A DNA stretch of 64,000 nt from assembly GCA_900095095.1 (NCBI GenBank), contig FMBT01000470.1, positions 23,325 through 87,324 of the forward strand, in the 5' to 3' direction. Positions 1,654 to 49,645 of the stretch are shown piece by piece. Origin of the DNA: Fragilariopsis cylindrus CCMP1102 (lineage: Eukaryota; Bacillariophyta; Bacillariophyceae; Bacillariales; Bacillariaceae). A program made the translations under genes and the position numbers. The stretch's first letter is position 1; each line of letters opens with the position of its first letter. Under the pieces are notes generated by a model. That model ran no database searches and was not told the DNA's origin. It saw only the letters and a list, made by a program, of their open reading frames with translations.

Positions 1654-4113
1654 ATGCCCGGTTTACAAGATCGAGCTCGAGAAGATTCCTCAAGTGATGA
1701 TGATAGTGTTGTGGAACATATCAGACCATCTACCTCAATTGAATGGAATGTTCCAATCGATGACTCCAATGGGGAGAAGTTCGTATGTCCTCGAATTCAA
1801 CAACAAAAGATTAAACGTACCACCAAGCGAAAAGCAAGACGAATTAAGGTTGCTGCAGCAAGAAAGAAATTAATTGACAATACTCCATTTGCTACAGACG
1901 CTAATGAACCAATTGTCCCCTTTATTGATAACATGGGCAATAATGAGGAATCATCTACAATGGTAGACGGTATAAAATTCTTTCCGGCAGAACGTAATTC
2001 GACTTGCACCGACATTATTGAGGACAATAATATCGAAGATTTGAACGATCAAATATTTTATGACTCCACTGAAGTACTTCATGATCCTAACATCTTTGTT
2101 GACACTGTATCCGACACAGCGTATCTAGATGACATGTCGACACCTCGACCTACGGAGCACGAGTACTGGGAAGACTTTCTATCAAATGAAGTCACTCAAC
2201 GTCTTATTTATCAAGGCATCATTGATTCCTGTGAACAATATGACATCAACGCTAACGATATAGCTTCTGTAATGACGCCTCTCAAGCCAAGATATTCGGT
2301 ACCTACACCGATTGACTACGAATCCAAACGGAAATATTTTGCACATCTACCGGCAGATATTATTAGAAATACCTTCAAGAATACAACGCAAAATATGAAG
2401 CTGCCTCCATCTACGAACCTGCACAAAATGTTCAAGTCACCTAATCCTTCTGCAAACCTCAAACGTCGAGACGAAGCTGATGCAACTGACATGATCTATT
2501 CAAATACACCTGCTATAAATGGTGGTGAGAAATGTGCTCATATCTTCGTTGGTAAAAAGTCAAAATTGACTGATGCATACAAGGTTAAAAATGGTTCTTC
2601 TGAAGAATTTCTAGAAAGCCTACAAGATCGAGTCCGTTATCGAGGATGTCCTACAGGATTAGAAGCAGATAATGCTCCTATGTACCGCGGTTGGAAAAAC
2701 TCACGATATCTCCGAGATATATGTATTTCCCAGTGGCAGTGTGAATCGAAATATCAGCATCAAAATTACGCTGAAAATCGATGGCAAACTGTCAAGCGTT
2801 ACACTAACCGAGTCATGGATCGCAGCGGCTGCCCTCCTTACATTTGGTTTCTAGCATTATCGTATGTCATCTTCTGCCTCAATCATTGTGTTGATCCTAT
2901 GCTCGGAGATGGAACCAAAAGTCCTTTGCAAATCGCGACATTCCAAATGACCGATATTAGTCCTCTGCTGTACTTTTATTTTTGGGAACCTGTTTATTTT
3001 CTTCTCGATGAAAAAGAACGAAAGTTTCCAGGAAAATCAAAAGAATGCAGAGGCCATTGGGTAGGAGTATCAGAACACATTGGAAACAAGATGACCTACA
3101 AAATCATTACAGATGATACTGGAGAAGAAATTTGCCGATCTGCCATACGTACTGCACGGGACACTACGATGAAGAATCTACGCGAAGATCCAATCACGAT
3201 TGATGATAACCTACTCAACGTAGAAGATATCATTTCTCCAGCAGAAGAAATTGCAAATATCAAGTTAAAAGAAGTAACCTCGGGAAATACTTTTAACAAT
3301 TTTGATACTACAGCAATATTAAAGAACATCGACGACCAACTACAAGAGGAACTGAAAGTAAAAGCAAAAGCTAAAGCTCATCAACTACAAGAAGAAGCGG
3401 ATGACTACTTTCTTGATTCAAATGAACAGCAGACTGGTCATTTTAACACAGCACCTCCTGTTGTCCCCGTTAAATCGTCGCTGCCCAAACGTTCATCTAC
3501 TACCAAGTCGAAACATGTAAAACCTAAGAAGTTACGCGACTTACATCCAAAAGATCCAAGTAGAGGAAGAGGAACACGTAGTAGTAAACGTTTGCGAGAT
3601 ATGAACATTCATGCAATGAATGCACTCATGACAAACGAAGTACAACCTGAACAAGACCTTCCGTTATCAACTAGTCGCCACCAAGAACATGTTACGGATA
3701 TCAACCATCCCACCAACCCACGGCCATCGCCTCTAACCCGTCAACAGGTTCTGAAAAATCGTGATACGCATATCACCGAACAAGAAGATCAATTTGTCTA
3801 TCTACGAGAAAATGGGGAGAATGAAAATCCTATATGGCAAGAATTTGAGTTTCCTCTCGAAGACGAAAATGGTAACGCGGTAATCGGAGAAGATGGCAAA
3901 CCGATGGTAATAATAGCACCTCCACCAAGTGACCTAGTAGGAAGAGTATTTCTAACCAAACCAGACGAGAGAGGTGAAGTTAATCGAGCACGAGTTGTAG
4001 AACTTATCAAGAACTTCGACGGCGAAGTAGAGAAGAATCAAGATCTAATCAGGTTCAAGCTTAACTATGATCACAGTTCCAAGAAGATATCATGTCTTAC
4101 AACGAGATCCTAG
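1654..4113 (+). pseudogene. copia integrase portion
   Basis: The segment continues the frame of the protease part. The integrase core is recognisable from about 2520 to 2900: an Asp in the ADNAPMYRG stretch (about 2665) and a Glu in NYAENRWQTVKR (about 2770) fit the second and third acidic residues of the DDE catalytic triad. The segment then runs WFLALSYVIFCLNHC, the usual copia signature after the catalytic Glu. The C-terminal part (3340-4010) is charged and low in complexity and leads into the pre-RT linker. The frame is lost near 4085, where the homologous linker passes into the frame that opens at 4092. The family inserts the cDNA copy into the genome. Confidence 0.8.
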
Positions 4114-5667
4114 ATTACATCGAAAGAGAAGAAAACAATGAAGACGGACATCATTGGAAGTTTCGTACTATATTAGGACACGTGCATACCCCTGTGGGAC
4201 ACAAGGAAAGAATGGGGAGTGACTATAATGTCAAGACGGCTTGGGAAACTGGAGCAGTTTCGGTTGAACCATTGGACTTCCTTGCTAAGGATATCCCAGT
4301 TGATCTTGCTATATATGCCAAGAAACACGACCTACTTGAGTTAGAGGGATGGAAACGCTTTAAAAGAATTGCTAACCGAGATCAGCATATTCGACGACTT
4401 GTGAAACAAGCCAAGCTACGTTCCTTCCGTGTTACTCCGAAGTACAAGTATGGATTCTCTATACCACGCAATTACAAGGAAGCCCTTGAATTTGACGAAA
4501 GGAACGGAAACCATAAATGGCAAGAAGCAAATGTACTGGAACATGCGCAACTAACCGACTATGCAGTATTCAAGAATAAGGGTAAATTCAACGAAGCAAA
4601 GATACCAGAAGGATATCGAAAGATTCAGGTTCATACTATCTTTGATGTGAAACACGATGGCAGACACAAGGCTCGAGTTGTAGCTAATGGTAATCTAACG
4701 GATGTACCTCTTGAATCTGTTTACTCAGGTGTTGTTTCATTACGTGGCTTACGTACATGCATATTCTTAGGAGAGCTGAACAACATGACTCCATGGGCTA
4801 CTGATATTGGAAATGCTTATCTTGAAGCAAAGACCACAGAAAAGGTATGTATCAAAGCAGGGCCAGAATTTGGGGAGCTACAAGGAAACCTTCTTATCAT
4901 CGATAAGGCTCTTTACGGATTACGACTTAGCGGAAAAGCTTTCAACATTTTCTATCTGACTGTCTACGAGACCTAGGATTCTTTCCATCTAAAGCCGAGT
5001 CAAGTATTTTCATGAGAAAATGTCCCACAAGAGACGTGTACGAATATGTGGCCACATATGTCGATGACCTATGCATTATTATGGAGAACCCGTTAGAGTT
5101 CCTCGAGCAGCTGTCGTCAGCACCGTACAACTTCAAACTGAAAGGTTCAGGAGAAGTTAACTTCCACTTAGGATGTGGATTTGAAAGAGACTCTGATGGA
5201 GTTCTATGTATGAACCCAGGTCGGTACGTCGATAAGATGGAAGATGCCTACAAGCAAGTCTTCAGGAATTGCCTAAACAGAAGTACAGATCGCCGTTAGT
5301 AAAAGGAGACCATCCAGAGCTTGATACAACCGCATTCCTTGACCAAGACGGAATTGAGATATATCAATCATTAATAGGAGCTATGCAATGGGCAATCTCT
5401 ATAGGACGATGGGATATTCAATCGGCAGTAATGACCTTATCAAGTTTCAGAGCTCAACCAAGAAAAGGACATCTTGAAAGAATCAAACGTATCTACGGAT
5501 TCTTATGCAAGTTCAGGCATTTCAAACTACGCTTTCGAGTTGATGACCAGATTATTCCGGTATTCCACCAATGCCACCTTACGATTGGAGCCATTCCGTA
5601 TATGGAAACCCAACTGAAGACATCCCTAAAGATGCACCGCCTCCACTGGGAAAACGAATCGTTTTGA
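4092..5667 (+). pseudogene. copia reverse transcriptase, in three frames
   Basis: The RT is split over three frames: 4092-4976, about 4950-5299 and about 5262-5667. The first carries the fingers/palm part (HKARVVANGN near 4670; DIGNAYLEA near 4805, with the first catalytic Asp; KALYGLRLSGKAF near 4905). The second carries YVDDL near 5055, the RT active-site motif. The third carries the thumb/connection region (SLIGAMQWAISIGRWDIQ near 5370). Each junction needs only a one-base change to keep the homology collinear, so these are simple frameshifts and not deletions of domains. Confidence 0.85.
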
Positions 5668-21986: not shown

Positions 21987-24413
21987 ATGAACAATACGAC
22001 GATGGACAAGGCTTGCTTTGATTGTGAAGAAACACAGCAGGCACACTTCCTCAATATGAAATCATCAAAGAAGCGACCGGATCCTGGCACTCCTACCAGT
22101 GCTCCACTTCGTAGATCGAGTCGAGATACAAATGTGCGTTAACGACGAAGTGCTAAAACTTTAATAAAGAAAAAACTTAAGAAAATCTGACTCTCACAAC
22201 GTTTCACAAGTTTCATTATACTAACTTTCCATCTGTTTTTTTCCCTTGTTGCTGTTGCTGCCGATGCTGTGGGAAACAGTCGATTCGATTAGCTTCCTCT
22301 GGGACTTTTTACCGTCGCATGCGTACTCTTTTTTTCTCAAATCCAAGCGAGAAAGAGTACGAAGAATTCTTAAAGAAAGGAAGTAGACGACGAGGCACTA
22401 CTGACTATAGTAAAAACGCCATTTCTAGTGCCAGTCCATCTGCCAGCGTTATTGACAGTGGTAGTAGTACATGTAGTGCTCAAGAACAAAGTAAGAATGA
22501 AATAAAGGTACGACGAGCGACCGTAAAGCCTTATCCTGAAGAAGCGTCCATATATGTCATTGATAACTTTTTAACAGAGGCAGAATTAGTATATTTCGAC
22601 AGGAAGATTGCTACGATCCCCTTCGAAAGATCCTTCGTTGATAATGCGGAATGCTATGGTGACGACGAAGATGATTATGACAATACGAGTGATGACGATA
22701 CTTGTGCTGGTGATGATGCACCAGATGATAATGATAAAGAAAAACGAGTTAATTGTGATGGAGATGGAGATGGAGATGGAGATGGAGATGGAAACGAAGG
22801 CAAAGAAGAAAAAAATGGCATTGTTAATAATGTGAAAAAACAGAAAGTTTCGGGAGTATACAATATCAGCAATGCATCAGTAGCTAGTGCCATCGACTGT
22901 AGCAATGGGAAAGAAGATGATATAAACAACAAGGTTGCCACGACGACAAACAAAAACGACAACGATGACGGAAACGGTGATGGAAACGTAGGCAAAGAAA
23001 AAAATGACGCTTTCAATATTGTGAAAGAGCAGAAAGTTTCTGGAGATGTCAACAACACAAGTTTATCAACAATTAGTACCAGTCCCTGTAATAATGGGAA
23101 AGCCGAAGATGTAAACAACGAGGTTGGCACAACGACACACAAAAACGGTAATGGAAATGAAGGCAAAGAAAAAATGATACTGTTAATATTGTGAAGGAGC
23201 AGAAATTTTCCGAAGTTTACAATGATAAAACCAGTTCATCAGCATTTAGCACCAGTTCCTGTAATAATGGGAAAACCGAAGATGGAAACAACAAGGTTGG
23301 CACAACGACACACAAAAATGACAGCAATGACGATGACAGAAATGGTGATGGGAATGAAAGCAAGGGAAAAAATGACAGTGTTAATATTGTGAAAGAGCAG
23401 AAAGTTTCTGAAGTATACAATAACACCAATGCATCGGCAATTAGTACCAGCACTTGTAATAATAGAGAAGAATATGATATAAACAACGAGGTTGGCATGA
23501 GGACGACAAACAAAAACAATAACAATGATAAAAGTAAAAATATCAAGGGGAAGAAAAGAGAGAAGAAAGATAACGACAACCTGCTACTTTAGTTGATGAT
23601 TCTCACAGAACATCTACATTCTATTCATTTAAAAAGTTGCATGACAGCAAAATCAGTGCTCTCGAGCGACGTATCGCAACTATGTTGGTGAGTTGTTTCG
23701 TAACTTGTTTGTTTTGTTTTGTTTTGTTTTCTACATCATCCTTCTTAGGTTTATTCATATTTATATCTAATTCATTTTTGAAAAATCAATATCTTTCTGT
23801 ACATGTGTTTATTTGTTTGTGAATGTGTGACATTCCTCGTCTTTGTCATTACAATTACCATTATCTAAAGGGGTGTTGGGTCCATCAAATTGAAGCTTTG
23901 CAATTGGTACGATATCAACCGGGAGAATTTTTTGGTATCCATCATGACTTGGGAAATTTATTAGATGACGATACGGTTCAATTGCCTCCTAAGGATCACG
24001 GATGCAAGCGACGTTTAGTTACATTGTTTTGCTATTTAAATACACTACAAGACGACGAAGGAGGGTGCACCTACTTCCCCAATGTGGGGTCAGATAGTCA
24101 CTTGAGAGTGAAACCCAAACGTGGTCGTGCTGTTCTTTGGAGTAATATCGGTATAGGTGGAAAGCCCGATCCAAAAACTATTCATGCAGGGGAAACTGTC
24201 ATTAGTACTACACGTAGTAGTTGCAGTAATGGTGGTAATAGTAATAGCAATAGCAATAGCAATAGCAATAGCAATAGCAACATTAATAATTCCAGTGATA
24301 GTCACCAAAGTAACAATGAAAAGGATGATATTCAAATAAAGTACATCGGTGAGGGTAAAGGTGAGGCTGGGACCAAGAAGTATGGGCTCAACATTTGGGT
24401 TTGTGAGGAGTAA
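21987..24413 (+). CDS. prolyl 4-hydroxylase-like 2OG-Fe(II) oxygenase, 4 exons
   Basis: The catalytic domain has the Fe(II) ligands: HxD in FGIHHDLGN (about 23930) and the distal His in TIHAGE (about 24180), with Arg/Lys-type 2-oxoglutarate contacts around KYGLNIW near the end. LVRYQPGEFF and GGCTYFPN are P4H family blocks. Family role: hydroxylation of proline in peptides using 2OG and O2. Exons 21987-22133, 22280-22658, 23593-23687 and 23871-24413 join with GT-AG ends, keep frame throughout and give 387 aa without any stop; FERSFVDN in exon 2 and HRTSTFYSF in exon 3 are adjacent blocks in the family. Exon 1 is supported only by its open, in-phase joining. Intron 2 (934 nt) is a tandem repeat and is itself nearly open. 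Exon 4 has an (AGTAAT/AGCAAT)n tract coding Asn-Ser. Confidence 0.85.
22794..23560 (+). repeat. protein-like tandem repeat, about 190-bp unit, inside an intron
   Basis: Four degenerate copies are marked by GTGAAArAGCAGAAA at 22832, 23021, 23191 and 23389, with spacings 189, 170 and 198 bp. 189 and 198 are multiples of three and 170 is one short of 171, at an A-run that is one base shorter in that copy. The units would encode similar Asn/Lys/Ser/Thr-rich peptides. The repeat lies in the predicted second intron of the hydroxylase gene. Confidence 0.85.
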
Positions 24414-34507: not shown

Positions 34508-35369
34508 AGTGTTTCGAGTGTTGGAATTGAAGAATTAATATTTTCGAGACTGTGTTCAGGGGTTGTGTTTAATACTGTAGGACTGTAGGACTGTAAGTTA
34601 GTAGTTGTAATGGAAACCGAGGCCTTGACTCTTGACTTTCACTGTCAACTGATATTATTATTCTTTTTAAATCTTAAGAGACAAATGACACACGCGATGC
34701 ATTCGAATTAAATCCGAGCGAGCCGGTATGGTTCGGGAATGATTCTCAGTCACGGACAGACTTTTTCATTTTTCATTTTTCAATTCTAAATTTTTGGAAT
34801 TGAGATAATTACGTGGGATTAAAATTAAGCAGCGTGTTAATTTTTGAGAGCGTGTCCGCAAGGGAATAATAACGTTGAAAAACAAGTTTAATTAATTAAA
34901 CTTGTTGACATTACGTGGTTACTAAATACTTACGTTACTGAGTACTTTACTGTACTGAATACGGTACTGAATACTGTATGTATACAAGACACAAAACCTA
35001 AACCACACGGTCAACGGTCAATATGAAAATTCAACTGAAGCTAATCGATCGAACACAACCACAACACAACACAACACATCAACGACAACGACACAACACA
35101 ACACAACACAACACAACAACAACAACACCATATTTCCTCTATCTCTACATCTCTTTTGTTGGAACCTGACACAACATCATCGGCCGATGGTGTTGTCCGT
35201 TAGTTTGAAAACAGTTGGTTGTTTGTGTAAGGACAGTATGATGCATAATGTTGAAGCTCTTTTTCTTCTTTTCCGAATCATTCATCGAATCGACCATAAC
35301 CACAACACAACCACACAACAACAACACAACAACTAATAATAACAACAACAACAACAACACAACAACAAC
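34508..35369. other. intergenic region with palindrome and ACAAC repeats
   Basis: It contains the 26-bp palindrome at 34881-34906 and (ACAAC)n/(AAC)n runs at 35045-35130 and 35290-35369. No gene is seen. Confidence 0.5.
34881..34906. repeat. 26-bp perfect palindrome
   Basis: The half-site AACAAGTTTAATT at 34881-34893 is followed at once by its exact reverse complement. It shares the TTAATTAATTAA core type with the hairpin at 10282-10384 but not its flanks. Confidence 0.9.
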
Positions 35370-35513
35370 ATGTCATATGACAGAGCTGAGTTTGCTAGCA
35401 GCAAATTCGTGAATGCTATTGGGGATAAGAAGGATGTACAGTTTGCTGGAAAGGATCTTCGATCGTTCCGCACATCTCCCAACAATCTCCATGGCGCGTC
35501 ATATGATGAGTGA
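35370..35513 (+). CDS. possible 47-aa peptide or first exon
   Basis: The frame MSYDRAEFASSKFVNAIG..YDE starts right after an (AAC)n leader like that of the next gene and ends in TGA 35511-35513. GTGAGG overlaps the end, so it may instead be a first exon, but no partner exon was found. No domain is recognised. Confidence 0.25.
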   Translation: MSYDRAEFASSKFVNAIGDKKDVQFAGKDLRSFRTSPNNLHGASYDE

Positions 35514-35886
35514 GGAATCCCATGGTCGGTATTCCCTCTTCTTCTTAATCTCAATACATCACATAATTAATTACCTTCATGTACGAATACGATTGAGTCC
35601 ATTAAGTCAAACATGAGGGCGTGTGACTGAAATCAGTCACTAATCGTGATCGTCGATGAAAATAATAAGAAATCAAAGAGCTTTGCGCGAGTACTAGCAT
35701 AGCGTACTGTAGAGGTGTCCACGCGAGAAAAATGAGTTATTTTTTGCCAATCACGCTGTTCTGCCATCACCCAAAACGCAATCCATTGTCGTTTCTGGAC
35801 TCTTCTTCTTTATTCATTCATTCATTCGAAAGACGACGACTGTTTCTCCTTAACAGAAACAATAACAAAACAACAACAACAACAAG
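35514..35886. other. intergenic leader region
   Basis: Upstream flank of the three-exon orphan gene, ending in an A/C-rich leader (35860-35886). No further gene is seen. Confidence 0.5.
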
Positions 35887-38207
35887 ATGCTTCCGCTTCC
35901 ACGATCAGAAGAAGAGAAAATAATTTATGACAAAGAAGATTATTTTAAAAGGAAGAGAACAGAAGAAAAGAAAGGATGGGACGACGACAAGAGTAACAAC
36001 AACAACAGCGAGTCGTTGTCGTCCAATAACAACAAGGACGACGACAACGTCGGTGGTGGTGGTGGTGGTGGTGGCAACACCATCCAGCAGGGTAATGATA
36101 GCGGTGTAGGTGGTGGTATCTCTTCATCGTCATCATCGTCGTCATGTAAAAAGCAGAACGCGGTGGGTGCGGCGCCACAACGATCGACGACGCCAATTAA
36201 GAAGAAGCAATCGTCGAAGACTCCTACTCCTAATGCAGCTACTCATGATTACGTATCACCCAACAAAACCATTGACTGTTATGGTGGTATCGTCGATGTT
36301 CATCCGTACCCACATCATCCACCGTACCCACATCATCCACATCATCCACCGTACCCACATCATCCACCGTACCCACATCATCCACCGTACCCACATCCAC
36401 CGTACCCACATCATCCACCGTACCCACATCATCCACCGTACCCACATCATCCACCGTACCCACATCATCCACCGTACCCACATCCACCGTACCCACATCA
36501 TCCACCGTACCCACATCCACCGTACCCACATCATCCACCGTACCCACATCCATCGTACCCACATCATCCACCGTACCCACATCAGCAAGGTCCATCACGG
36601 CCACAACCAATGACGCCACAATCACAACAACAGCAACAACACCCACCGTATGAAGACTATGACGACGACGATGATAGTGCTACGTCAGATGCAATGGTGA
36701 GTCAATGCATCTACTGTATTGTTCATATTATTATTACCACTGTATGTAAATATGATATACATCATTTATTGTCATGGTTATGTCGACTCACACATCATAA
36801 CATTCTTACTACATTTCTTATTACATTTATAGTCCAACGACATGGGCGACGACTTCACTGAATCTTTATATATGAAAAAAGTACAAGCACTAACCGCCAC
36901 TGCTCTTGCTAAGAAAATAATACGGGACAACAAGATAGCCGAAGAAGACAACAAGACTGCGAAGATGATACGAGACTTGGACGAAAGGATAGCAAAAGAA
37001 ACTGCAGAGCGGAAGGCACTACAAGTAGAGAAGAAAAGAAAAAGAGCAAAAGAAACTGCAGATTGGAAGGCGCTACTAGAAGAGAAGAAAAGGAAAAGAA
37101 CAGAAGATAAGTCGGAGCAGAAGGTGCAACGACAAGAAGAAAAGAAAAGAAAGAAACAAGAAAAGAAGTCGGAAAAGTTGAAAGAATCGGTACGTGTTAA
37201 TTCTATTTGTGTTAGTTGTCAATGTTTATCCTTATATTTCTGTTATAATCTAACTTTTATTTGTTGAATCTCCTACCTTTTTGGTATAGAAAAAATCGTA
37301 CGAGATCAGCACAATTGAAAAGACACCCACACAACGGTTGGAGATGTGCTACAGGCAACTCACACCCAAACAAACAACCGAGTTGCTTGTGGTCCTTCCG
37401 AAAATAAGCAACGTAAAAAACGCTTTCCTTGGACATTCGTTCGTAACAAAAGACACAACGAGTCGTGCTCTCAAGTATCTTTTATCAGCAATTCGTCACG
37501 GATTAATGCATTATCCAGATACATGCCATCCAAAGGTAGTACAATGGAATGGTGTTTCTAAATTTTGTATTAACTCTCATATTCCGTTGCTTATTGCTTT
37601 ATTTATGGCCTTGAGAAATGATGATGATAATCACAAATTCAATAGTGAAGAGTGGAACAAAATTCACACGGAAGTGATGTACGGTTGCCAATACGCCATT
37701 GATCGAAAGAGAAAAGAGAAAGGGAAGGTTGGAAGCAATTCGAATCCACTAACGGGATCAACCATTGAAAAGACTGGCGAAGTTGATAAGGATGGCAAGC
37801 TTGTGTGGAAACGAATTGATGCCCGTCCTAAGTTTCACAATAATGCTAACATCAGAAATACAAGTCACCAGTTTACTGGTGGTGGAACTGGTTCTGCTTA
37901 TATTACAAGAACTGTTGACGGCGTGTCTATTGTTTGGCCTGAATTTAACGATATCATCACCGTACAAGCCATCACGGATCTAGGGAAAAGTCTGATGAAT
38001 CATCTTTCAATTACTGATCACTCTGTTGTGGGTAAGCTCCTTGAAATGCGTCATTGGCATTCCATGAACTATTTTGGCCATCGACCTGTTGGAATCTACT
38101 GGTTCCATAAAGATGGAGGAACATTATCTTCAATGACGAACGACGAAATGGAATCAGTAGCAAGTAAAGGTGCACAATGGATAAAGAGCACAGCTCAATA
38201 CAAATAG
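35887..38207 (+). CDS. orphan protein with PPYPHH repeats and coiled coil, 3 exons
   Basis: Exons 35887-36696, 36833-37189 and 37290-38207 join in phase 0 with GTGAGT..TATAG and GTACGT..TATAG introns (136 and 100 nt) and give 694 aa without a stop. Residues about 1-135 are charged and low in complexity (Asn, Gly, Ser runs). Residues about 140-235 are tandem PPYPHH/PPYPH units; about 260-390 form a Lys/Glu-rich coiled coil; the last 300 residues look globular (LTPKQTTELLVVLPK; VGIYWFHKDGGTLSSM near the end), but no family was recognised. Tyr/His/Pro repeats occur in structural and phase-separating proteins, which is only analogy here. The clean splice solution supports a real gene. Confidence 0.75.
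36301..36590 (+). repeat. coding minisatellite, 18- and 15-bp units
   Basis: Units CCGTACCCACATCATCCA (18 bp) and CCGTACCCACATCCA (15 bp) alternate about 16 times. Both lengths are multiples of three, so copy-number change would keep the reading frame of the orphan gene. Confidence 0.9.
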
Positions 38208-38353
38208 AATTTATATTGTTCAATATTTGTCTCATTATTATTATAAAAGTAGCCAGTGTGATCAACTCTATCGTAGTCATCTATCTATCTCTAGAATAAA
38301 CAATGTAGACTCACCCCCGGGGTACGACAGCACGAGCTATCTGTACTAAAATA

Positions 38354-41145: not shown

Positions 41146-43219
41146 TCAGGAAGCAGAGTTCGTCAAGGCGCAACTGAAGAATTTCGGTGTCCCGTTGTCT
41201 CCCGAGGTCAATGTAATATTCATCGATAACTAATGAAGCAAGTAAAGTAGTGAAGAAAACGTCAAACTGAATGTAAGAATTTGCTACATATATCATATAT
41301 CATATATTTTCATTCCATAACTCTAGGAGCGATCGATGATCGTACATACATAGAAACACACACGCACATACTAATATTAAATTCTCACCTGAATATTTTG
41401 TTTCGATGTGACTGGTCCTGTCCAAAATCGATCCTTCGTAGATGGTGAGTCATCATTGTTCGTTGTAGATGATGCATTGTTGGTTGTAACCTGTTGTATA
41501 TCAATAGCAGTATTACTGTTACTTTTGCTATCTTCCGCTGTCTTTAACATTTGTGCCATGGCTCTAAAAATATCTTGATGATTATGTACTAGATTAAAAA
41601 GAGATTGTTTCAACAGGTCTTCATGTGTCGTATATCCTAATAGGGACTGGAATTCAGTATTGCATTCTAATATACGCCCATCAAGAGCTGCGATGCCCAT
41701 TGCCGTCGGACATTGATCAAATAAACCACGATAATCGATGCCCTTAACGAAATATAGTTCCGAATCTCGTGACGGTGATCCAACGATTTCACTTGTTCCT
41801 CTTCCATGTCGCCAATCATTTTCGATGCCCATTGTAGTGTCCGAGGTCTCACCACCATTTTCATTGTTGTTATTATTTTTTCCTGTATTTGTGATCATTT
41901 CATTCGTTTGTTGGACAGTTGTTATTAATTTTTGATGTTCAGCATCCAACATGATCGCCCTCGATTGTAACTGCTTAATGTATTCTACAACCTTAAGCAA
42001 TATAGAGTACTTGTTTGGTTTGAACGGTACATTGCATTCCGATAATACTTCTCTTAATTCCTTAATTTGAGTACTAATCTTGGAGGATCGTTGCTGCTCT
42101 CGTAAATTCCGTTCGTACCGTCTTCTTTCGGCAGGATCGGTAACTTTCGCTAACGCTTCTTCATTATACTTTCGTTTCGGGGCTGGTTCCGGACGATGAC
42201 CGCCGTTCGCAGATGAAACAACCGAAGGTGCTATTTCGTTGTTCATCATCATCATCATTTGTGGTGGTGGTGGGTGGTGCAAGCAGGTCCAAATTCATAT
42301 TCGGGTTCTTATTATTGGGTTGAGAGTGAGACATCGAGTGCGATATCATCGGTTGTTGCTGTTGCTGTTGTTGCTGCTGCTGCGAGATCGCCGCCGGAAG
42401 GATGAGAGTTGGCAGTGCGTTCGATTGCGGTTGCAGTTGTTGCTGCTGTTGTTGAACCTGTAATGGTATTTGTTGCTGCTGCTGCTGTTGTTGAACTGTA
42501 ATGGTATTTGTTGCTGTTGTTGCCCTGGTTGTTGTACTTGCCTGGTTGTTGTACCGCTTGCTGCGTAGTAGCTGCAAATAAAGAGGCAGGATTGAACAGT
42601 AGCGTTCCGTTGTTCACAATCCCGCCGATGCTCCAGCAGGGGGTAGTGCAATTGGAGCGCCGCCAGTAGCTTGTGTGGGATTAATATGTTGTGGTTTTAT
42701 AAAATGTAGGGATTTTGTGTTGTGAGAGCCGTTGCTGTTCCTGGTACTCCTACTGCTGCTGTTGCTACTTGTGTTGTCGGTACCGACTGCTGTATGGGTT
42801 GGTAAACTGGCTGTTGCTGTTGTTGCTGCTGTTGTTGCTGCTGCTGTGGATGATGAGATTGAGGATACGTTTGCTGATGCTGATGTTGCTGCTGAGATTG
42901 GATAATACCTACCGCTTGCAACGGATCATAGGAAGCCATTGGAGCAGGAGCAGCAGTATCATAGCAGGAGCTAGTTGTTGTTGCTGTTGCTGTGGTTCAT
43001 TAGTTAAAGGTACTCCCTTGCTGGTTGACCGTATGCTGTATTCATACCAGCGGACGCTGATAGTTGAAATCCAGCTGCGTTGATTGCCGGAAGACTTTTC
43101 TGTATTGCATCCCAGGTGTCATTAGTGTTCGTATTTGTATTAGTGTTGTTATTGAAATTATTATTATTATCCGTCGGGACACCAGCGTGAGGATTGATAT
43201 TGTAAGCGTACCCGCTCAT
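41146..43219 (-). CDS. bHLH-PAS transcription factor 1 (RITMO1-like), 2 exons, Gln-rich N-terminus disrupted
   Basis: The basic region and HLH (RRRYERNLREQQRSSKIS; FKPNKYSILLKVVEYIKQL) bind E-boxes as a dimer, and a PAS domain follows (YRGLFDQCPTAMGIAALDGR). Exon 1 ends at 41389; GT 41388 to AG 41230 (159 nt, phase 0) leads to a last exon 41229-41146 reading LSMNITLTSGDNGTPKFF, homologous to the last exon of gene 2. From the ATG run at 42258 the frame is intact (317 aa). Upstream, from MSGYAYNINPHAGV at 43219, Asn/Gln-rich text is spread over all frames with about seven shifts inside CAA/CAG repeats. Either these are consensus errors in repeats, or translation starts at 42258. Similarity to the diatom circadian regulator RITMO1/bHLH1a family is from recognition of the bHLH text; nuclear role. 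Confidence 0.82.
42340..42900 (-). repeat. CAA/CAG (Gln) repeat cluster
   Basis: Several GTT/GCT-rich tracts on the plus strand (poly-Gln on the minus strand), including a partial duplication of an AACAAATACCATTACAG unit (near 42470 and 42500) and of GTACAACAACCAGG. These explain the unstable frame. Confidence 0.75.
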
Positions 43220-45215
43220 AATAATTGTACGTGTAAATATATTAAATTAAATTAAATTAAGAGTAGTTATGTAAATTAAGATTCGGTGGGACGAACGAGA
43301 ACTGATTTCGTAATCTTAAAGAGGATGGGGACAAGACAGATTGCTTATTAAGAGATGATCTTGATCTTCTTGTTAAAGGAAACAGTATTACGTGTATTGT
43401 TGTTATGCTGGACGACAATGCTTGTTTGTTCGAGGTAGAGAACTGCAGATGTCCATGCAATATGTTACTCTGCTGTGAGTAGTATTCGTGTAGGTAGATT
43501 GTTTCTTGCTTGATAGCGATGCTACAACTTCCCAATACACAGGGCGATTTATAACACGAACATCTGCTAGGGCGTGCGATGACGCCATCTGGGGCTTGAA
43601 AAAATGTTCTTCCTTTTGAGAGGCCTTAATAAAATATATTTGTATTATGTAAATTTTTCAAAATAAGGCGTAGCCTTTGATAAATTGAAAATATTTTATA
43701 ATGCATACTTTCCCCCAGCATACTTTTTTAAACACGTCGACGCACGAAGGGTTTCGTAAATTAAGGGTTACGTCAGCAGAACCAAAATGATTTTCCCATT
43801 CAATCACAATCAACGAAGAAGTGTTACAGTAAAAATTAAAGGCATTTCATTGGAAATAAACGATTCTTCCACGCGTAACACTGCTGTTATGCTACAGTAG
43901 GCTACAGTATATTACCAACACTTGGTAATTTCTATTTTTCGTTACTTTCCATACTCTAGCTAGGAGTGATGAACTGGGGTTAAAAGTCCAGTATTGTATA
44001 CCTTAATAGTCGATGTAAGTGATCTAAAGTACTGCTGTATTATATCACATGCAATTGAAAATATATTGAGGAAATGGACCTAGTACATTTTTCCTCATAA
44101 TATAGTAGATGGAGCTCAAAATTAATCCATCATGTGTTCTTTTGTTGTTGTGTTGAGCACAGAAGACAGACCAGTCACTTTTATTCTTAACAGGCCTGTG
44201 AAACACTGGTGATATTGCAGATCCACAAGTTAGCATCATCATCTACTATAGTGCAACAAGAAGAAGTGAAGGATGATCCAACAATCTAATCAATGCAACA
44301 ATTGCTAGTTAGTCCCTGTATTATTCCAACAAAGTGTCAGCAAGCAGTTTCTTGCCTATACTTTGCTGCAATTGGATCCTATATGTAATATATTAGCTTT
44401 AGATCTAACAGATTTACCTGTACCTTCCTCAATAAAAATTTGCTATCTGAACACTGAGTCACTCATTCTATTTTTTTCACGTGCAAGTAGTAGAGTAGAG
44501 TACAACTCTACATTACATTGTAGTTACCGGTAGTAGTAGAGAAAGTAGTGATGACACAAGCGTTTTTTTTGGTTCGCCAAAAGCAAATTCTCCAATCGAA
44601 TTATGTGAATAAAACAACAAGATGATATTTAAAAAAATAGCCAACCGAAAGACTTCAATAATTTCTGACAGCTGCAGAAACGCACGTCAACAGCTTTTTC
44701 TTCCTAAGTAATTATTTTTGACGCGTCGTTGTTCATCTGCTTTTGGTGAAGTTGAAACACGTCATAAATAAATAAAATGATGAACTGCGTCGCCAACCAC
44801 TAAACAATGCACGTTCATCTCGTATTTGTACTGTTATTCTTCGTTAAAACTTCGGTATCCAATTTCAAATTGAGTGTCGTATGACCCATCGTTGTTTTAC
44901 CGTCATTGAAGAAGTGACAACAGAAGGAAACTACGTAAAATTAACAGGGGAATTATATAAAGCAACAGTGGAAGAGAGATCGAATAAGTATTACGTGTAT
45001 TTAAAAACAAAGGCAATTACACTTGACTTACAAGTATACATACAGGTGTACAAACAAGTGTACATACAAGTAAACCCCAACAAAGAAAAGCCAAGCAAAA
45101 GAAAAGCAAAGCAAAAGAAAACGTCACAACTTACACAAAAAGCTCCTATTCCGGTAGTAGATTTCTATCTAACTTTTTGTTTGTTTGTGTAATTTGAATT
45201 GAAAACGACAACATC
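43220..45215. promoter_or_regulatory. shared 2-kb region between divergent bHLH-PAS genes
   Basis: It lies between two divergent start codons and so holds both promoters. A perfect G-box CACGTG is at 44478-44483, the palindromic target of bHLH dimers. ACGTCA (the TGACGT core of CRE/bZIP sites) occurs at 43770, 44684 and 44759. Use of these sites is inference. A 103-codon frame at 44881-45192 lies in the presumed leader of gene 2. Confidence 0.5.
44478..44483. promoter_or_regulatory. G-box CACGTG
   Basis: A palindromic E-box 738 bp upstream of the ATG of gene 2. It is a candidate site for self- or cross-regulation by the bHLH-PAS pair. Confidence 0.45.
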
Positions 45216-47029
45216 ATGGATGAGTTTCAATTTATTGAATCTTTGGATGCGTTATTAGCCAATGATGGTATCGATGAGACAGAAGCAGTCGATGCGACGG
45301 GAGATCAAGGAATGGAAACTGGCGGTGGCGAGTGGTTACCAATCCCTATAACCAATAATAGTAGTAGTGGCTGCAATACGAGGACGGTACAGGACCCTTT
45401 TGCACAGTTTTTTCCGACTCCTACTACTACGGCATCGCCACAAGTAGCTGAAGATTTCTATCCGCAGCAGTATACATCTTTGGTGAACAATAGCACGACG
45501 ACGTACTCAAATAATCATGTTGAACAACAACTAGCAGGAACGGGAATGCTTTCACCCGCAGCAGTATTGTCAAGACAGATACCTACATCGTCCTCGTTAG
45601 GAATGGAAGTTGCAACAGTTCAAGCTCCTTTGATGACGACTGTTGCTCCACCATCGGGACCTATTACTATGTCTTCGAAAAGAACTAAAGGCATGTCCAC
45701 CAGTGGCGGTAGAAGCGTTGCCAGCGCTACAAGCGCAGGAACAGGAGGAACATCATCTTCTCGGAAACGCTCTCGACAGAAAGAATCGTCCTCCATGGCG
45801 GTATCGGATAGTGAAGATGAAGGTTCCAAGCGACGATCCGATCGTAATCTTCGTGAACAAAAACGATCACAAAAAATTACAGAACAAATCGATCAACTTC
45901 GAGAGGTTCTAGCGGCTGCAAGTGTACGATTTAAACCAGATAAGTTCTCGACATTGATAAGCGTTGTAGAATACGTCAAGCAATTACAGACACGATCAAC
46001 TATGCTCGATACGGAGCACAAAAATTTGTTAGATACGATATCCAGAACTAATGAAATGGTAAACGAGTCGTATCTTCCGGCCTCTGCGACGGGTGGTGGT
46101 GGCTCCAGCCACAGCAGTGGCAACAAGACTGACTGCGATACCTCTTTGAATGCGCAACCAGATTCGGCCGTATCTAGTGGTAGTGATATCTACAACGACG
46201 ATGAGATGGCTTTCGTACGGAACGTAGATTATAGGTGTATATTCGATAAATGTGGTGTGCCGCTAGCAGTGGCGAGTATTGATGGACGACTATTGGATTG
46301 CAATGACGAGTTCTTGCAACTTACCCAATACAGTCGTAAAGAATTATTACCCGTCGAATATCACCAACAAGCTTCAGCTGTTATTGCAGACGAAGTTGCT
46401 TCATCATTTTCGGAGGACCCTTCTGCATTCCCTGATTTACCTGCCAGTAACAATGATCTTTCGATTATTGGTTCGAAAACAGACGACGAAAGCAATTCCA
46501 TCGTTACCACCGAAACAGCAACAACAACCTCCATGATGCATTTAAAACAAGACCAGGGTGTACAACATGACGGAGGAGACGAAGACAAAGAAAGCACGGA
46601 AGATGATGATAGTCAAATCCCAACAAGGAACTTTTCCCTTTTTGACTTACTTAGTCGTAACCACATGGAGGATGTTTTTGTATCGTTGAGTCAAATGTTA
46701 AAGCGCCCTCCCAAAGACAAAGTTGGAACAGGAGCAGTGACCATGGACGACCACTGGTGGGGGAATGTCCACCTAAATCGAAACACGGATTTAGAGGTAC
46801 GTCGCATTATTTTTTAATTTTTCATGTTCCATCAATTATTGTCAATCACGCTATCATCTATTCTTATTAACCAAAATTTTGGGCCTGAAACTCACAACTA
46901 ACCTCCTCACATTCTGAATACATGTACTTTTTTTTTTTTTCAAAGATGCGACTGAATATTTCACTAGTTAGAAGTCCTCAAGGTAGAGCCAAATTTTTCG
47001 ACTGTTCTCTTACACCTCTCGCGGTGTGA
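45216..47029 (+). CDS. bHLH-PAS transcription factor 2 (RITMO1/bHLH1b-like), 2 exons, 554 aa
   Basis: The basic-HLH lies at residues about 204-264 (SKRRSDRNLREQKRSQKI; RFKPDKFSTLISVVEYVKQL) and a PAS domain starts near residue 337 (YRCIFDKCGVPLAVASIDGR; LLDCNDEFLQLTQYSRKEL). The N-terminal 200 residues are Ser/Thr/Gln-rich, like an activation region. Exon 1 ends at 46796; GT 46797 to AG 46945 (149 nt) leads in phase 0 to a 28-codon last exon, 46946-47029, reading MRLNISLVRSPQGRAKFF. Gene 1 has the same intron position and last exon, so the two are paralogues. All frames are intact. Family knowledge: diatom bHLH1a/1b control diel rhythms. That this copy does so is inference. Confidence 0.88.
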
Positions 47030-47453: not shown

Positions 47454-49119
47454 CTATTTTCCGTATCGCCTTTTTCTTCCCTTAGCGTAGGTCTGAATCA
47501 CCTGCAAAAGATCTGCCTTTTCTACTGCAGGCCAAGGTTTGTCCCAAAAGAAGAGCTCTGTGTACGCTAGTTGCCACAACAAGAAGTTACTTATCCGCAC
47601 CTCGCCGCTGGTTCTAATCAATACATCTGGATCGCCCCCGCAATTATTTGTTAGGAGCCGTTGACTAATAGTCTTCTCATTGATACTTTTCGGGTCTAAT
47701 TTATTGTGTAACGCATCCTCGACGATAGACTTTGTAGCCCTTACAATTTCATCGCGACTCCCATAACTTAAACAAATATTCATAATCATACCGTTGCAAT
47801 GTTGTGTCTCTTCTACCATTCGTTTGATACCTACCTGAACATGTGCTGGTATCTGTGTTTATTACAAACACGATGTGTCGTGATACGAAACCATAGAAAA
47901 TTAACGAGATAATAACATAAAGTGAGCAAGTATAGTTGAGATGATATGTTGAGGGATTTCGATCTGGTATACTGTACCACAACAATCATTGGATAACGAA
48001 TGAAGACAACACAATATGATACATGGAGCTTAATTCATACATACTCACTCTTTCATATTCTGTGGACAAAGCCATAATCTTAATATTTCGTTGAATCGCT
48101 TCCACCCGAAGTTCATCGCAGTATTTTGCGAATATTTTCATCAAGGCAGCAACCTCGGCTGGTTCTCTTTTCCAATTTTCACTGGAAAAAGCAAAGACTG
48201 TTAAGACTGCAATTCGTTCAGCTATACACCACTTAGCAAATTCTACCAATTTCGAACTACCGTCCCAGTGTCCTCTTGTTGCGTTACCATATTTCAATTT
48301 TCCGTATCGTCGATTTCCGTCCATAATGACCGCCACGTGTCGTGGGAGCGAGTCGACTGGTACATCGCTTTCTCTTACGGTTCCCTCATCGCTATTCAAA
48401 TAGGTACGTTTCTTTGCTTCGCGAATCGTTAAACCCGATGAACTATCGTTATCACCTTTGCATTTTGACATTGCAGCGATGTTACTGGCTGACCCCGCCG
48501 CCGTCTTCGTTGTTTTTGTTGTTGTGGAATAAGATGATGCTAATGATGATTCGTATACGAATGTCGACTGGGAAGTACCTTCAAGAAACCAGAAAGATGC
48601 AGCAACGCCTAAACGAAACCTAATAAAAGAAAGCCATTCAGATAATTTCGTCTTTTTTTCTTTCTTTTGTTCTAAATAATGATGACCTCTTCTTCCAAGC
48701 CAAAATCCGATGATAATACCAAATAATAACGGAGCTATGACTAAAAGTAGTGGTTTGGCGTTATATGAGCTAGCGATCTTAAATAGCATCATTTTCATCC
48801 AACGAAGAACTAACCACCACAGTGGTTGATCGTCGGGACAATTAAATTGCTGCATCGGAGAAGAGCATGAGCATTGATGACTGGTATTTTCGATAGGAAG
48901 ACCAAAAAGTTCAATAGCATCAGCGTCACCACGGTCAGCGTAGTAGAAATTTGATTTAATACCACCACTACCGCCACCACCGATCTTCTTGTTGACAATT
49001 TCGTCGTCGTATTCGTCAATATTGCCCATCATTATCGAGACCCTGTCTACCAATTGTTGTTGCCATGGAGCAGTTGTTTCTTCTGTCGAAGAAGATACAT
49101 CAAGAATTTGTACATCCAT
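47454..49119 (-). CDS. cis-prenyltransferase (dehydrodolichyl/undecaprenyl diphosphate synthase type), 2 exons, 483 aa
   Basis: Conserved blocks in order: HVAVIMDGNRRYGK with the catalytic Asp, GHWDGS, FAFSSENWKR, then in exon 2 MIMNICLSYGSRDEIV, DPDVLIRTSGEVRISNFLLWQ and AYTELFF. It condenses isopentenyl diphosphates onto an allylic primer to make long Z-polyprenyl diphosphate, the precursor of dolichol for glycosylation. Exons 49119-48049 and 47834-47454 join in phase 0 across GTGAGT..TTCAG (214 nt). The catalytic part is preceded by about 250 residues absent from bacterial UppS, with one hydrophobic helix (LLLVIAPLLFGIIIGFWLG), so the enzyme is probably anchored in the ER; a separate NgBR-like subunit is not visible here. 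Intact. Confidence 0.92.
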
Positions 49120-49645
49120 TTTTTACGACGTTTTTCCTTCGTTTATAAAGTAATTCTTCCACCTTCACACCTGCAACATTTCTCTTACTTTGAACTTGTT
49201 GTTTTGATAATGTTTAGTAGAGGATACTAATTACAATAACTGAGAACAATACCTCAACTGATGATGATAATGATATATGTTCTGTATGTGTTTTGTAGTC
49301 TGTACTAGTACAAAACATGAAATGTTTTTGATCGAAATTTGAAATTGAGGGTACAAGCGCTTTTCGATTATGGTACTACATTAGTGTTTACTAGGATGGC
49401 CCTGTCCACAAGTTTCAAGTATATGCGTAAAAAAGTAAAAACAAAGACTCACATAAATATAACTCTACAAATTCTACCACCAAACATAACAGGAAAAAGA
49501 AGAAGAAGAAGAAGAAGTAAAGTAATAACAGCATAATTACTTTCAAACGACGGAACAATATTACCGGTGCTATTGTCCTCTTCTACCCTAAGTGCAAGTT
49601 CATCAACGAAATAATAAAAATAAAAAACAAGATAAAACAAAAGTT
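49120..49645. other. divergent promoter region
   Basis: It separates the starts of the cis-prenyltransferase (-) and KH protein (+) genes. It contains a GAAGAA run near 49497-49517. No gene is seen. Confidence 0.5.

Follow-up and report, generated by a model that had tools for sequence, protein, structure and literature searches.

The window, which is the whole 64,000-nt stretch of DNA that was analysed (positions 23325–87324 of contig C43), contains two divergent bHLH-PAS genes. Gene 1 is on the minus strand (43219 to 41146, start ATG at 43219–43217), and gene 2 extends on the plus strand from its ATG at 45216 to 47029, so that the two start codons are 1,996 bp apart. Each gene consists of one long exon, one short phase-0 GT-AG intron and a last exon of 84 nt, as listed below; the splice junctions 41389/41229 and 46796/46946 are predictions from the DNA sequence.

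41146..41229, minus strand: gene 1 last exon, 84 nt including the stop codon, encoding LSMNITLTSGDNGTPKFFSCALTNSAS; probably the last PAS strands
41230..41388, minus strand: gene 1 intron, 159 nt, phase 0, GT-AG, donor AAT ATT CAG/GTGAGA, ending in TTAG
41389..43219, minus strand: gene 1 exon 1, with a Gln-rich N-terminus, the bHLH (41965–42123) and the first PAS part
43220..45215, no strand: divergent intergenic region, 1,996 bp (2,410 bp on contig C109), ACGTG-dense
45216..46796, plus strand: gene 2 exon 1, with a Ser/Thr-rich N-terminus, the bHLH (45831–45989) and PAS
46797..46945, plus strand: gene 2 intron, 149 nt, phase 0, GT-AG, donor GAT TTA GAG/GTACGT, ending in AAAG
46946..47029, plus strand: gene 2 last exon, 84 nt, encoding MRLNISLVRSPQGRAKFFDCSLTPLAV; probably the last PAS strands and the stop codon

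When read by eye, the PAS part of gene 2 is apparently split by some 90 residues of inserted low-complexity sequence; the automatic alignment puts this insertion elsewhere. Downstream of gene 2 lies a minus-strand gene (47454–49122), whose frame 47986–49122 matched the Pfam Prenyltransf profile (E = 1.5e-22, profile positions 1–88 of 219); the remainder of this gene is probably in the frame 47454–47858, past an intron. No Rfam family was found in the window at the gathering score.

Profile searches were carried out on genome contigs amounting to 67.9 Mb (818 contigs). The bHLH profile PF00010 matched both genes above the Pfam cut-off of 20.7 bits, with 36.7 bits (E = 3.7e-9) for gene 1 and 33.9 bits (E = 2.8e-8) for gene 2. 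C-terminal to the bHLH, gene 1 had a PAS match above the cut-off (PF00989, 39.5 bits against 22.6, E = 6.5e-10). The PAS match of gene 2 was below it (PF13188, 19.3 bits against 21.8, E = 0.001), and the PAS assignment of gene 2 therefore rests on its alignment with gene 1. A single PAS domain was found in each protein, with the C-terminus no more than a few residues beyond it. A PDB search with the spliced gene 1 product returned only weak bHLH or PAS matches (seven sequences, best E = 0.0048). The genome contained 27 matches to the silicon transporter profile Silic_transp (best E = 1.1e-226), indicating that the host is a diatom. A query extending from the bHLH to the middle of the PAS domain found no relatives in a single scan of either the genome_contigs or the viral_contigs collection; a viral or bacterial source was likewise unsupported, because tblastn of gene 2 against plasmids returned nothing, as did the searches of genome_contigs and viral_contigs. 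The locus is an ordinary but neat pair within a known gene family.

The pair recurs on contigs C109 and C162, which carry the alternate haplotype. These two contigs were 99.98% identical over 11,322 alignment columns, although C162 stops short of the last exon of gene 1; we read them as one haplotype assembled twice, and three copies of the pair were rejected on this ground. Against these contigs, the longer aligned blocks of the window were 95–97% identical, and gene 2 exon 1 was 98% identical. That the pair itself is a haplotype artefact is ruled out as well, because gene 1 and gene 2 are alike in only 35 of 56 bHLH residues, whereas alleles show approximately 95–98% identity at the DNA level. 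C109 retains the donor, the acceptor and the last exon of each gene, with one difference per last exon that is synonymous by reading. The gene 2 alleles differ by 10 synonymous and 5 non-synonymous codons among 554, and the gene 2 intron on C109 is 148 nt long with its GT and AG kept. A sequence-only reading of this DNA had described two divergent bHLH-PAS genes about 2 kb apart, kept as a linked pair in a diatom. This description was borne out by the ATG-to-ATG distance, by the Pfam matches (bHLH in both genes and PAS in gene 1, with PAS in gene 2 through its alignment to gene 1), by the silicon transporter matches and by the presence of the pair on the second haplotype. In another part of the window, a segment of approximately 3.5 kb (34761–38256) was present on C43 and missing at the same place on C109. 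Its right part (within 37013–38248) occurred, whole or mostly, at 10 or more other places in the genome with 97–99% identity, and because of these many copies the segment is probably a polymorphic mobile element.

Four contigs of the genome gave seven HLH matches in total (C43, C109 and C162 with two apiece, C184 with one), and these counts are lower bounds because the search goes exon by exon and bHLH genes split by an intron may be missed. The single match on C184 belongs to a third bHLH-PAS gene (G000:C184:493000-500500, at about 3512–5000 of this segment), in which PF13188 scored 25.1 bits, above the cut-off. Against the 35 of 56 bHLH residues shared within the pair, identities to the third paralog were 26 and 22; gene 1 and gene 2 were 62% identical over 63 residues, compared with 48% over 52 residues to the third paralog. 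In the PAS domain, identity was 47/116 between gene 1 and gene 2, 34/115 between the third paralog and gene 1, and 39/117 between the third paralog and gene 2, so that the PAS of gene 2 is almost equally near to both. Judged by these comparisons, the members of the pair appear to be each other's nearest relatives among the three bHLH-PAS loci found. Among other PAS genes, contigs C382 and C139 are two haplotigs that carry a PAS gene with a bZIP-like stretch (recognized by eye), and their reading frames differ in Gln/Asn-rich parts. An open frame of 1,581 residues with six tandem PAS matches was observed on G000:C184:281863-284112 and on G000:C630:13577-15826.

The last exons of gene 1 and gene 2 aligned without gaps and were identical at 11 of 27 residues. 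As background we took every "AG + 27 codons + stop" stretch on either strand of the window, 77 in all when the two real last exons are counted. The last exon of gene 1 scored 54 against that of gene 2, compared with −3 for the top unrelated candidate, and none of 20,000 residue shuffles reached 54 (maximum, 24), which rules out a chance origin of the likeness. When tails of any length from 5 codons upwards were considered within 1.5 kb downstream of the gene 1 donor, the same exon came top with a score of 56, and the runner-up scored 23. The paralogy proposed in the sequence-only reading, together with the phase-0 intron and the homologous 84-nt last exon in each gene, was confirmed by the bHLH identities, the gapless alignment and this chance test. 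One detail required correction: the intron had been placed after the PAS part, and it is apparently within it. In the C184 gene, the stretch GLNVKLVKGGDGVAKCFCVTLILNP downstream of the PAS aligned to both tiny exons and is intronless there. Because this gene has the equivalent stretch without an intron, the intron of the pair probably lies inside the PAS fold, before the last strands, and the 84-nt exon probably finishes the protein and the domain together.

Addition of the last exon changed the PF00989 score of gene 1 from 41.1 to 41.4 bits and the score of gene 2 from 16.9 to 18.4 bits with the matched stretch unchanged, and the Pfam PAS profiles did not extend into the last exon of either gene. 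A PAS profile made from the three sequences gave BMAL1 as its first match in the PDB; this match was weak (E = 7.8e-4), covered positions 23–71 of 118 with the tail outside, and one of the four chains listed for it is an unrelated PHIST protein. As the Pfam and PDB matches miss the tail, completion of the PAS domain rests on the alignment of the paralogs, for which two frames of the C184 gene, broken just before the PAS tail, were joined by hand.

The C184 gene has an apparent intron after the bHLH (seen as a frame break) that is missing in the pair, and the PAS intron of the pair is missing in the C184 gene. The comparison covers three sequences and yields no rooted tree. The best explanation of the pair would be that the PAS intron was gained first and an old inverted tandem duplication followed, which is the simplest account; loss of this intron from the third gene is a possible alternative.

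Animal clock members of the bHLH-PAS family have two PAS domains. The window genes resemble BMAL1 and CLOCK in that a bHLH is followed by PAS, and BMAL1 was the weak first PDB match of the PAS profile; unlike the animal proteins, those of the window have one PAS found, with the protein ending within a few residues of it.

Closer relatives are described in diatoms. In Phaeodactylum tricornutum, bHLH1b is presumably Phatr3_J44963, a number next to that of RITMO1, which would suggest linkage in that species. RITMO1 (bHLH1a; Phatr3_J44962, PMC7596299) is described as the first and so far only stramenopile clock component (PMC10739334). Knockout of AUREO1a abolished the diel pattern of RITMO1 and bHLH1b in P. 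tricornutum (PMC11174801), both genes responded alike to blue light (PMC7670200), and the rhythm of bHLH1b in constant light was strongly altered in RITMO1 lines (PMC12018780). All diatoms with omic data are reported to have multiple RITMO1-like genes (PMC12018780), and the heterotrophic diatom Nitzschia putrida to have lost bHLH-1a with retention of bHLH1b (PMC9054022). Thalassiosira pseudonana is described as having four bHLH-PAS genes, with the same domain pairing as the window genes, and three of these are reported to stay periodic over day and night whatever the iron level (PMC6738920). RITMO1 and bHLH1b resemble gene 1 and gene 2 as a related pair of diatom bHLH-PAS genes, a likeness drawn from published description. 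The P. tricornutum pair is reported to be rhythmic and AUREO1a-dependent (PMC11174801, PMC7670200). It is plausible that gene 1 and gene 2 are, as the sequence-only reading proposed, candidate counterparts of RITMO1 and bHLH1b. Our literature search found no published head-to-head linkage of diatom bHLH-PAS genes; the founding RITMO1 study lay outside this search, and a prior report is possible.

Taken together, the bHLH and PAS profiles, the presence of the pair on two haplotypes, the bHLH identities, the last-exon match and the small number of allelic changes make it likely, in our judgment, that the locus is a RITMO1-like single-PAS bHLH pair whose precursor already had an intron close to the end of the PAS domain and was duplicated long ago as an inverted tandem. 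Each protein probably uses its bHLH to bind E-box-like DNA as a dimer, with the PAS domain stabilising or selecting the partner, and the spliced 27-residue tail would supply the last PAS strands. A role in diel regulation is probable for both genes, and each probably has a separate promoter within the 2-kb gap; some sites in the gap may be common to both, bound by the two proteins or by an aureochrome.

We examined the region between the genes for signs of shared regulation. The gap measures 1,996 bp on C43. It is longer on C109 (2,410 bp), where a 401-bp insertion near the middle (window position 44028) that the window lacks explains most of the difference. When the alleles were compared in 100-base blocks, the flanks were mostly 92–99% identical, and the least alike part was the middle (approximately 43820–44520). 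For comparison, motifs were also counted in 68 tiles taken from other parts of the genome, each as long as the gap, none overlapping another, and with coding and non-coding DNA mixed. We take TGACGT to be the aureochrome site and ACGTG to be the bHLH-PAS core. ACGTG occurred 9 times in the gap (both strands, with one palindromic CACGTG counted twice; tile mean, 2.32), a number reached by 1 of the 68 tiles, but because the tiles are mixed and the motifs were chosen afterwards, this density is only a hint. Four TGACGT sites (reached by three tiles) and 15 CANNTG sites (reached by two) were present, and the perfect E-box CACGTG was not enriched, with one site, a number that 15 of the 68 tiles reach. 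Against shuffles, 5 of 12 gap motifs gave values of 0.017 or less at best (CANNTG, CACGTS, TGACGT and CACGTM are the four <0.02) and the others did not, these motifs having been picked after the region was seen and the values being uncorrected for multiple testing. Neither ACGT nor TGAC turned up in a search of PMC10967249. The sequence TGACGTGT was ruled out as a special site, since its 1,338 genome copies are fewer than the 1,839 of the reversed control. Seven TGACGTGT sites were observed at G000:C63:123864-124771 with an exact spacing of 150 bases, and because of this spacing the cluster is probably a tandem repeat.

The dense ACGTG sites between the genes, together with the response of both P. 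tricornutum genes to AUREO1a, only suggest that gene 1 and gene 2 are co-regulated. We put at about even the chance that the pair is linked by descent alone, with two independent promoters in the 2-kb gap, neutral adjacency and no shared regulation; this view is solely about regulation and does not conflict with the duplication origin. A bidirectional promoter is defined, in PMC2648788 and PMC7817982, by start sites no more than 1 kb apart, compared with 1,996 bp (C43) and 2,410 bp (C109) here, measured from ATG to ATG and not between transcription start sites. The spacing of 2.0–2.4 kb and the 401-bp allelic insertion are as compatible with two separate promoters as with one common promoter, and the divergence of the alleles in the middle of the gap and the ordinary count of CACGTG also favour independence. 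The counts of ACGTG, TGACGT and CANNTG, which few tiles reach, argue in the other direction, as does the nearly parallel expression reported for the P. tricornutum pair (PMC11174801, PMC7670200).

The state of gene 1 differs between the haplotypes. On C109, gene 1 is an open frame from MSGYGNHY to the donor without a stop, whereas in the window the part before the bHLH is out of frame, a feature absent from the sequence-only reading. The N-terminal coding part (42261–43219, 959 bases) contained 13 indels relative to C109, seven of them frame-breaking; these seven lie between 42272 and 43017, in a CAG-rich low-complexity stretch, and six of the seven are single-base. Frame-breaking indels were absent from the remainder of gene 1 exon 1, from the first exon of gene 2, from both last exons and from the prenyltransferase region. 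Such a contrast would be expected if the window held a truly broken or N-terminally short allele, leaving the cell functionally hemizygous for gene 1, and a short bHLH-PAS protein could begin at a run of Met codons early in the intact 305-codon frame. We regard this as unlikely, as the indels are confined to the CAG-rich stretch and are nearly all of one base; the haplotigs C382 and C139 likewise differ in frame in Gln/Asn-rich parts, which fits consensus error; and the intact bHLH-PAS part and tail of gene 1 show 12 synonymous and 4 non-synonymous differences among 317 codons, as under constraint. The frame breaks of gene 1 in the window are most likely consensus errors.

A more elaborate reading, which we consider very improbable, would make the locus an ancient conserved clock-type module in which the two proteins dimerise with each other and feed back on the ACGTG-rich gap, and splicing of the tiny exon decides whether the PAS domain is competent to fold. 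Regulated retention of the PAS intron, which would yield tail-less forms of both proteins as a common switch of PAS folding, is scarcely credible: the two introns share their phase (0) and their position, and retention in the window ends both proteins a few codons past exon 1, but the retained-intron stop of gene 2 is absent from C109, where the frame runs approximately 30 residues further, and this difference between alleles indicates that the gene 2 intron shows no constraint.

The tiny last exon could escape gene predictors, in which case the PAS domain would be truncated in annotations. The finding would gain weight if the head-to-head order were conserved across diatoms or if the tiny exon were a regulated switch. 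To our knowledge, little is known about the partner and the control region of RITMO1, and a linked paralog pair in another diatom would offer a natural control region for feedback tests.
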